64,000 nt of DNA from Vampirovibrionales bacterium (GTDB lineage: Bacteria; Cyanobacteriota; Vampirovibrionia; Vampirovibrionales; Vampirovibrionaceae), in NCBI GenBank assembly GCA_029262635.1, contig JAJCZA010000017.1:62001-126000 (forward strand). The letters are read 5' to 3'. The notes under the pieces are model-generated. The model saw nothing but the letters and a program-made list of their open reading frames with translations. It had not been told where the DNA came from and ran no database searches. Positions 24,263 to 29,172 of the stretch are shown here, one piece after another. Positions within the stretch are counted from its first letter, which is position 1; the number at the start of each line of letters is the position of its first letter. A program made the position numbers and the translations under genes.

Positions 24263-24273
24263 TATAATATAAT
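24263..24273 (+). promoter_or_regulatory. Overlapping TATAAT elements before the halogenase-like gene
   Basis: Two overlapping TATAAT hexamers (24263-24268 and 24268-24273) lie in an AT-rich run about 45 nt before the chosen TTG start. No good -35 is seen. Confidence 0.35.
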
Positions 24274-24317
24274 TGCCGTATGTTACTTTACAATCCCATT
24301 CGATAGGTGGCCGACCC

Positions 24318-25640
24318 TTGTTTTTATTTGAAAAATTTAAAAAAATGATGCTCAAAACGCCAACACCGGATCATCAGTGCCCCATATCATCAGAACTGGA
24401 ACCAGAACCAAAGGTCGAATTAGGGCCGCAACAAGAGCCAGAAGTCTCCGGCCTTAAAAAGAAACGAAAATTAGGTGTTATTGGAGTGGGTTCTGCCGGC
24501 TTGTTGAGCTTGGTGCATTTTTGCACATGGCTTGAAGAGGATTGGGAAATCTATTCGATTCATAATCCAGCCAAGGAAATTCTGGGTATTGGCGAAAGCA
24601 CGAATGGAGAATTTGTGGGCCTTCTGGAACGAGGAACCCATTTTTGTCTGGGCAGCCAAGAAGACTTAAAAGCACTGGATGCGACCATTAAGTTTGGCAG
24701 CAAGTTTAGTGGTTGGCGAGAGGCTTCCTGGATTAACCCCTTGCTTGATGGAAATACGGCCGTTCATTTCAACAATTATTTCTTTAAGGATTTTATTTAT
24801 TCAAGACTTGAGAAATTGTGGCCAAAGCAGTTTCGCTTTATCGAAGGCGATGTTAAAGAACTGGTCAACCATTCTGATCGAGTCACCGTAACCATTGATG
24901 AGTCTGAACATGAGTTCGATTTTGTTATCGACTGTATGGGCTTTCCCAGCAATTATGATGACTACGTTATTAGTGACTGCACCCCAGTGAATCGATGCCT
25001 GGTTCACAGTATCGAAGATTTTGAATATGAGCCCTTTACCGACCATATCGCCCATGCCCATGGGTGGATGTTTGGGGTTCCTCTGCAATCTCGAAAGACT
25101 TATGGCTACCTTTATAATGACAAGATTACGGCGAAAGAAGAGGCCGTTGAGGATATGAAACGGATTCTTGAGGTGGATGAAATTGAAGATAAAGAATACG
25201 TTTTCAAGTGTTATTACACCCCAAAGTTGGTTGAAGGCCGCATTTTTAAAAATGGGAACAAGGCGCTATTTTTTGAACCCCTGGTTGCTAATTCTATTGC
25301 GCTTTATACATACGCCATGCGTCTTATTTATGACCGCATGATGGGAAACACGACCGAAGAGGAAACGAATACATCCTTCGTTGACGCTGTTCAGCCCGTC
25401 GAAAATATTATCAGTTATTATTATCAAGGAGGGTCAACCTTTGAGTCGGCATTTTGGGACCATGCCACTCGCCATACGAAGGCCCGCCTGGAAAACCAAC
25501 AGGCTTTTAAAGACATGATGGCGACCTATAAGAACCTGAAGGATCGTGGCATCCTGAACATGGGAAGTATTTATGGATTTAAGCCCTTAACCTGGGAAAT
25601 CGTTGATGAGCAAATGGGCTATGGCTATATTGGCAAATAA
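24318..25640 (+). CDS. FAD-dependent tryptophan-halogenase-like protein
   Basis: This protein of about 440 residues resembles the flavin-dependent tryptophan halogenase family. It has a Rossmann motif GVIGVGSAG (about residues 53-61). GIGESTNGEF (about 90-99) corresponds to the family's GEAT/GEST region, where a catalytic lysine usually follows. DCMGFPSNYDD and a later FFEPLVANSIALYTYAM complete the fold. The halogenase hallmark WxWxIP appears as WMFGVP, with Phe and Val substituted. This, and the absence of an obvious catalytic lysine near GEST, leaves halogenation unproven; hydroxylation or another flavin reaction is possible. An N-terminal segment is Pro/Glu-rich. The start is uncertain: TTG at 24318 has GGTGG 7-8 nt upstream, while the ATG at 24345 lacks a site. 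Confidence 0.7.
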   Translation: MFLFEKFKKMMLKTPTPDHQCPISSELEPEPKVELGPQQEPEVSGLKKKRKLGVIGVGSAGLLSLVHFCTWLEEDWEIYSIHNPAKEILGIGESTNGEFVGLLERGTHFCLGSQEDLKALDATIKFGSKFSGWREASWINPLLDGNTAVHFNNYFFKDFIYSRLEKLWPKQFRFIEGDVKELVNHSDRVTVTIDESEHEFDFVIDCMGFPSNYDDYVISDCTPVNRCLVHSIEDFEYEPFTDHIAHAHGWMFGVPLQSRKTYGYLYNDKITAKEEAVEDMKRILEVDEIEDKEYVFKCYYTPKLVEGRIFKNGNKALFFEPLVANSIALYTYAMRLIYDRMMGNTTEEETNTSFVDAVQPVENIISYYYQGGSTFESAFWDHATRHTKARLENQQAFKDMMATYKNLKDRGILNMGSIYGFKPLTWEIVDEQMGYGYIGK

Positions 25641-27589: not shown

Positions 27590-29062
27590 TTAAGGTATTA
27601 AAGGGGCGGCGTAGGAGGTTCCTTTTCGTCGAGTATCATAATCAAGAACACCGTCTTCATTTTCTATCATTTTCAGCTTTGAATTCGGGAGGCAATAAAA
27701 AGAGAGGTTCGCGTACTTCGCTAATTTCAATTCTTTTCTGCTCAATCGACCTCTTAAAACATTAAGCTCCATATTTGAATACAATTTATCTGGCTCCAGA
27801 TCTTCTAAAAACGCTTTCCATGCTTTTTTTGGAATAATTCCGTCGTGCTTTCCTCGTAGAGTTTTCGCCCGTTTTTCAATTTCAGGCGTGATTTTGCCTT
27901 GAACTTCGCTCAGTTTCTTGCCCTTAAACTTCTTACCTTCAAATAAAGGCTCTGTATCATCAAAATTCAATATACTCAACGGAAAATCAGGAATGTTATC
28001 GCCTGTAATATCAATCCCATCTTTAAGGGTTTTTACCGTGTAAACGCCGGGTCGCCGGTGGGTTATCAAGGAATGATCAGCAGAAAAAGCGGCCTTGTTG
28101 CCAAATTCATCCAGGGCGCCCACACTCACCACATGCTTTCCTAATGAATAAGCATTGATGGTTTCATCGCTTGTATTGACCAACCCGGCATTACCTCCAG
28201 AAACAACGGTTGTGACTTCGACACGATTTAGACGCTGAACATGTCGATCCATTCCAACTGTCTTTTCTATAAAAATCAGATCATTAACCGCTTGAGAATT
28301 TTTTGATTTGCCTTTTTTACCCTTACGTTCATCCTTACGTTCAGCCTCAGTGGAGCGGCGAGAGGCTTTATACCGCGCTTCAAAAGCCTTCATGATAGCC
28401 TCTTCTTTCTCATGAAGGTTTTCAGGTGTAATACCGCTGACGCCACTCAAGCGTTCTAAATCAGCATAGGTCATTTTTTTCCATTCGCCTTTAGACGTAT
28501 AAGGAGGATTAAGTGAAAGCTGAACGATATCCACCTTAATTTCACCTCGTTCTATTTTAGAGATCCATTCCTCTCGCCTTTTAGAAAGGGTATAAAGAGA
28601 ATCATTCTGTTGTTCCGGGCGCACACCGCTAATGTCCGCCGGAATCACTCGAACGCCGTTACTTCGATTAAAAGCGGCCACAAGATCACCATGCATTACC
28701 TTGTCGAGATAGCCATCCACATTGATATCCGATTGCTTATCTCGCTTTCGCTCCAAACGGTCTTGCTCTTCAGGAGAATTTAAATCCCCATCGCTTTCTT
28801 CCTGATAAAAACTATCGAACACGAGTGCCGTTAACGTTTCACCTCGGTCTTGTTTCTTTTTAAGGAAAGCGACTCGCTCTTGAGGCGAACGATTGAAAAA
28901 TGGCGTTTGCTCAAAAGCATCCACTTGCGCTTGATACGGCTTTGTTTTAAACGCATTTTCTTGAGTACTCGACGTCTTTAAAGCCTTACTTTTTTTTGTC
29001 AAATCAGGCGTTATTTGGCCTGATTCCATTTCTAAACTGTTATTTGATATATTTAACACCAT
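27590..29062 (-). CDS. Divergent subtilisin-like (S8) protein without signal peptide, ending just after the catalytic serine
   Basis: This 490-residue protein has a probable subtilase triad. D83 lies in ALVFDSF, H124 in HGDLVAAF and S483 in GTSYAAP. The oxyanion Asn is N291 in VVSGGNAG, and VVSVGALDEFGNKAAFS is also typical of the fold. Three things are odd. No signal peptide is seen. The Asn-to-Ser distance is about 190 residues instead of about 65, owing to a charged insert. The protein stops seven residues after S483, removing the helix that normally follows. All three frames stop soon after, so a single frameshift does not rescue it. DINVDGYLD (112-120) resembles an EF-hand/dockerin calcium loop. 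It could be an unusual protease, an inactive relative, or a decaying gene. Confidence 0.6.
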   Translation of the reverse strand: MVLNISNNSLEMESGQITPDLTKKSKALKTSSTQENAFKTKPYQAQVDAFEQTPFFNRSPQERVAFLKKKQDRGETLTALVFDSFYQEESDGDLNSPEEQDRLERKRDKQSDINVDGYLDKVMHGDLVAAFNRSNGVRVIPADISGVRPEQQNDSLYTLSKRREEWISKIERGEIKVDIVQLSLNPPYTSKGEWKKMTYADLERLSGVSGITPENLHEKEEAIMKAFEARYKASRRSTEAERKDERKGKKGKSKNSQAVNDLIFIEKTVGMDRHVQRLNRVEVTTVVSGGNAGLVNTSDETINAYSLGKHVVSVGALDEFGNKAAFSADHSLITHRRPGVYTVKTLKDGIDITGDNIPDFPLSILNFDDTEPLFEGKKFKGKKLSEVQGKITPEIEKRAKTLRGKHDGIIPKKAWKAFLEDLEPDKLYSNMELNVLRGRLSRKELKLAKYANLSFYCLPNSKLKMIENEDGVLDYDTRRKGTSYAAPLIP

Positions 29063-29172
29063 CGAATACGACCCTGATACCTATCCCTAATTATATTTGT
29101 ATAAAAACAAAATAAAGAGGCCTAATGCTAGGCAAAAACGAGAATTAAGGATTCTTTAATATTTATTGGAAT

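Follow-up and report, generated by a model that had tools for sequence, protein, structure and literature searches.

A trimmed, leaderless relative of subtilisin and its diverse family in the class Melainabacteria

Can a protein that has kept the active-site residues of subtilisin, and in which the catalytic domain is trimmed at both ends, still be a protease? The question is raised by a gene for 490 amino acids in a stretch of 64,000 nucleotides from a Vampirovibrionales genome (GenBank assembly GCA_029262635.1, contig JAJCZA010000017.1, positions 62,001 to 126,000), called here the window. An earlier note, made by reading the letters of this DNA, had left the choice between a cytoplasmic protease of a new subfamily, a regulator that lost catalysis and a decaying gene. 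The gene is real and intact, and its family is widespread within one class. Judged from sequence, the product is an uncharacterised, trimmed relative of subtilisin in which an export signal of the classical type is absent. Our preferred reading, to which we give a probability of about one half, is that it would be an active, leaderless, calcium-assisted cytoplasmic protease of the S8 type.

The gene and its active-site residues

Two features define the locus:

27590..29062, minus strand: gene for the leaderless, C-terminally short S8-like protein of 490 amino acids (open reading frame, S8 matches and a paralogue)
29120..29133, minus strand: terminator-like hairpin between a relA/spoT-like open reading frame and the gene (pattern match; the number of such patterns equals the shuffle mean)

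The gene starts with ATG, with an in-frame stop six codons 5' of it, and when scored by the codon usage of its neighbours only its own frame is coding-like (0.24 bits per codon, versus −0.06 to −0.23 for the other five frames). It follows the relA/spoT-like frame on the same strand, and the hairpin between the two suggests a possible separate transcription unit. The surroundings of the gene and of its relatives are of a housekeeping nature and indicate neither a partner gene nor a substrate, and among the adjacent genes there is no evident lanthipeptide or T7SS partner. Two genes downstream, on the opposite strand, lies a frame for 455 amino acids (window positions 24273-25640) that by eye looks like an FAD-dependent tryptophan halogenase.

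The active-site positions, with their subtilisin equivalents, are as follows:

28814..28816, minus strand: codon of D83 (in V-F-D-S-F; LVFD, residues 80-83), equivalent to Asp32; alignment, D in 34 of 39 aligned members
28691..28693, minus strand: codon of H124 (VMHG, 122-125), equivalent to His64; H in 42 of 44 aligned members
28514..28516, minus strand: codon of S183 (VQLSL), equivalent to Ser125; S in 31 of 39, collinear with SLG in alignments to PDB entries
28190..28192, minus strand: codon of N291 (SGGN, 288-291), equivalent to the oxyanion-hole Asn155; N in 41 of 47
27614..27616, minus strand: codon of S483 (GTSYAAP, 481-487), equivalent to Ser221 and followed by seven residues; alignment

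The four residues named in the earlier note, D83, H124, N291 and S483, were all found where it had put them, in the S8 order D-H-N-S. It had overlooked S183, as well as an acidic loop at residues 351-360 (DITGDNIPDF). Ser125 is one of five residues given as functionally key in subtilisin-like proteins (PMC11593635). In a set of 40 non-redundant members, for most of which pairwise identity is only about 20-30%, H124 ranks 4th in conservation, D83 7th, S483 8th, N291 9th and S183 15th out of 305 columns, and in 26 of these 40 D, H, N and the Ser motif are all retained. The surroundings of the aspartate are D-x-F in the family, versus D-[ST]-G in canonical S8 enzymes.

Two relatives from the same taxonomic order, L046:1300-2574 (A, Q, D and D at the D, H, N and S positions) and L036:1339-2658 (S, S, G and G in the same order), have lost all catalytic residues and are, from their sequences, probable pseudoproteases.

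Relationship to S8 proteases and spread of the family

Homology of the family to S8 is well supported by profile comparisons. The protein itself matches PF00082 with E=3.9e-4 and 20.3 bits, just under the curated cut-off of 21.8, and the relatives L003 and L033 exceed this cut-off on their own (26.6 and 31.1 bits). A profile of 15 members matches solved subtilisins (E about 1e-5) collinearly over D, H, SLG, GN and GTS; with the single protein the best match to a solved structure has E=0.35. The top PDB profile match is CylA, in which the Asp, His-Gly, SLG, GN and GTS motifs are again collinear, and four of the 15 members give weak NCBIfam matches to mycosins. The processing subtilases of the CylA/NisP/mycosin kind are exported, full-length enzymes that act on defined partner systems. 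In profile-profile comparison with the three S8 proteins of ordinary type that the genome encodes, only the central region was aligned, at 73% probability. AlphaFold models with one or two sequences as input reached uninformative pLDDT values of 34.9 and 33.1 and a pTM of 0.22; for the two-sequence input, the pairwise alignment with the sole homologue misplaced N291.

The same genome holds two further members. The paralogue L009 (453 amino acids) is 40% identical to the window protein (E=2e-68) and is joined to it with full support in the tree; it terminates in GTSFAAPSIFRDE, 10 residues past the serine. The third, L045, has 364-370 amino acids, stops 22 residues past its serine and belongs to another old branch. 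Distant members were found by BLASTP, down to 7e-11. A search with the family profile in the class Vampirovibrionia/Melainabacteria gave matches in 68 of 289 genomes at E<=1e-6, the weakest of which may be ordinary S8 proteins. When 386 genomes of the phylum were searched, 36 were positive at E<=1e-12, all in this class, and a scan of genome contigs, the one search that extended to other phyla, gave at least one relative among the matches listed, in a Candidatus Caenarcanales MAG; this puts the class down as Vampirovibriophyceae/Melainabacteria. No relatives turned up in viral contigs, scanned three times, or in plasmids, scanned once. The family is old and diverse and, within the 386 genomes of the phylum, was detected solely in Melainabacteria, a non-photosynthetic class of the Cyanobacteriota. 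Our literature search found no paper that joins Vampirovibrio with a subtilase, and no description of this S8-like family.

The nearest branch to the clade of the window protein is L085:116-1378, which ends in NFGSSAFLVD, a few residues past a possible serine; a clear GTSxAxP is absent from it. A single in-frame TAA interrupts a family gene of genome G183 (L024:1249-2286); the class therefore contains at least one broken copy.

Trimmed ends, long insert and acidic loops

Three further features were mapped:

28703..28729, minus strand: EF-hand/FG-GAP-like acidic loop DINVDGYLD, codons 112-120, directly before the His motif; conserved in the family
27983..28012, minus strand: second acidic loop DITGDNIPDF, codons 351-360, at the start of the long insert; family alignment
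27623..28048, minus strand: long insert between the PG element (about 202 in subtilisin) and GTS, codons 339-480, about 142 residues versus about 18 in subtilisin; alignment and distances

By its sequence, the domain lacks a part at either end. The ending seven residues past the catalytic serine, reported earlier, is confirmed; it leaves room for only about two turns of a helix. The part of PF00082 that follows the Ser helix is absent, as is general across the family: in ordinary S8 matches of the class the alignment to the Pfam model of 288 positions mostly runs as far as 258-288, and L033, a family member above the cut-off, stops at position 246. Among 40 open reading frames with the Ser motif, 37 stop 7-29 residues past it; longer tails occur in L080 (42), L047 (75) and L051 (264). 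The distance from N291 to S483, given before as about 190 residues, measures 192, as compared to 66 between N155 and S221 of subtilisin. Family members fall into a short class of about 72-108 and a long class of about 155-268 residues for this distance.

At the other end, no more than about 15-30 residues precede the catalytic Asp in the relatives L007, L003, L005 and L045, too few for a prodomain, and the window protein has about 80 residues ahead of it. The earlier note had seen no signal peptide, in agreement with a hydropathy maximum of 0.16 near the N-terminus (17-residue Kyte-Doolittle window). A hydropathy scan detected no hydrophobic leader in the protein or its paralogues, and no transmembrane segment is evident (maximum 0.55 over the whole protein with a 19-residue window). 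The only clear leader in the family is lipoprotein-like (LLSATLLANCQSD) and belongs to L050:1489-1977, an N-terminal family fragment of 163 amino acids. A class-wide N-terminal F-x-G tag was considered and dropped, as it is not enriched in N-termini (19, versus 28 in the next 70 residues of the sampled stretches).

Both acidic loops are conserved in the family. The loop ahead of the His motif has the form D-x-[DN]-x-D-G-x-x-D, and the glycine just before the second loop, G349, is invariant (38 of 38). The first loop had been described as EF-hand- or dockerin-like; it is indeed present at residues 112-120, but it is not specific, since L010, an ordinary subtilase of 1300 amino acids from the same genome, carries DDDQNGYVDD between its Asp and His, and no fused dockerin or EF-hand domain is needed to account for it. 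The large secreted subtilases with a DDDxNGYVDD loop, of which L010 is an example, share with the family an acidic loop between Asp and His; in the family, unlike in these enzymes, the loop abuts the His motif and the remaining connecting segment is absent. From sequence we infer that both acidic loops are putative calcium sites.

Could the short ending simply reflect decay or truncation of a once longer, secreted subtilase? The tail of the window protein is the shortest in the family, which would fit such an origin, but the frame is intact and L009, at 40% identity, has the same kind of ending. Between the two genes, codon positions 1, 2 and 3 are 56, 63 and 35% identical, which implies synonymous saturation with retention of the protein sequence, that is, long purifying selection. 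None of the downstream frames continues into an S8 C-terminus, which rejects truncation by a frameshift, and no close relative among those searched was found to be long or to bear a leader, the form that the earlier note had said would expose a pseudogene. The homologues with the same ending that it proposed to look for do exist, from L009 with its tail of 10 to most of the family. Decay is thus refuted by the paralogues with like endings, the coding signature and purifying selection, and we consider it extremely improbable; as far as sequences can tell, the short ending is a family trait of which the window protein is the extreme case.

Possible functions and comparison with known systems

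The family departs from PF00082 enzymes in several respects. It has D, H, SLG-like S, N and GTSxAxP in the same order as they do and a central region that matches solved subtilisins, but the window protein scores below the cut-off, the context of the Asp is D-x-F, a long insert precedes GTS, the last approximately 40 positions of the model are missing, there is no leader, and several members lack the room for a prodomain. A precedent for subtilases without a leader is given by the intracellular subtilisins (ISPs) of Bacillaceae, which need calcium for activity (PMC6220982). They have the S8 triad and the absent leader in common with the window protein, but their Peptidase_S8 domain is complete (residues 40-311 in the example of the paper) and they have an inhibitory LIPY/F propeptide at the N-terminus (PMC6220982). 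By reading, residues 1-82 of the window protein are without this motif, and a terminal LIP is at the wrong end; moreover, there is no ISP-like full-length match and the C-terminus is missing. Since propeptide and full domain are both missing, the family is not a member of the ISPs. That part of the earlier proposal which spoke of a new subfamily is supported, as a diverse family in the class has in common that it lacks a leader, keeps the acidic loops and the catalytic residues, and ends soon after the serine; the cytoplasmic location is presumed.

By sequence, this class-specific subfamily retains all five residues that function in the active site of subtilisin, on a trimmed core extending from the strand of Asp32 to the helix of Ser221; it has no classical export leader, and at least several members have no space for a prodomain of the I9 type. 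If the preferred reading of an active cytoplasmic protease is followed, the core would fold like subtilisin, with the long insert before GTS packing in place of the missing C-terminal helices. Calcium bound at the acidic loop that touches the catalytic His may switch on or stabilise the enzyme, which would be quiet at the low calcium level of the cytoplasm and become active once calcium rises, and would then cleave intracellular proteins by the ordinary Asp-His-Ser mechanism. More tentatively, and with rather more doubt than belief, one may envisage a naturally minimal active subtilisin, trimmed at both ends, without prodomain, leader and C-terminal helices, with a replacement insert that keeps it together and a calcium loop, leading directly to the catalytic His, as its gate, and restricted to the interior of the cells of one class.

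The other readings have to be weighed against the same data. The fold may now serve for binding or for the sensing of calcium, catalysis having been lost by the trimming after the serine. The truncation of both ends and the replacement of D-[ST]-G by D-x-F agree with this, as do the several relatives that lack Asp, His, Asn or Ser, and an S8 pseudoprotease with a function is already known in CspC of C. difficile (PMC6636752). However, in the family the catalytic residues rank with the best-conserved positions, only few members have lost them and all are present in the window protein; retention of exactly these residues is not what one would expect of a binding module. A regulator that lost catalysis is therefore rather unlikely for this protein. 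Alternatively, the protease may be leaderless but exported by a non-Sec route, to act on neighbours, prey or host after being switched on by extracellular calcium through its two acidic loops. A protein without signal peptide but with calcium-like loops would suit the difference between a low-calcium inside and a high-calcium outside, and the diverse, multi-copy family occurs in a class that contains Vampirovibrio chlorellavorus, a predator for which use of a T4SS has been reported (PMC4451040). Yet the VirB4-type T4SS ATPase (PF03135) was not found in this genome, for which reason a role as T4SS effector was rejected; RTX repeats for type 1 export are not seen in the window protein, unlike in L011, an ordinary S8 protein of the same genome, and the family C-termini share no obvious signal. 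We regard export as unlikely. A function in anti-phage defence was also rejected, as PADLOC matches were at chance level only.

Should the active cytoplasmic protease be confirmed, the family would show how small a natural subtilisin core can become, and how a protease without prodomain and leader stays harmless in the cytoplasm. The family is conserved, multi-copy and uncharacterised, in a class with few cultured members. Because it lies near or below the Pfam cut-off it is missed by standard annotation, and its members are candidates for lineage-specific biology.

A different architecture is found in one genus (g67), where L025:547-2250, L026, L027, L029-L031 and L033 have an N-terminal part of about 320 residues fused to the S8-like part. 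A Pfam scan of two of these proteins named nothing in the N-terminal part, which resembles a zinc metalloprotease in its HExGH motif (e.g. LFHEIGHAV) and hydrophobic stretches.
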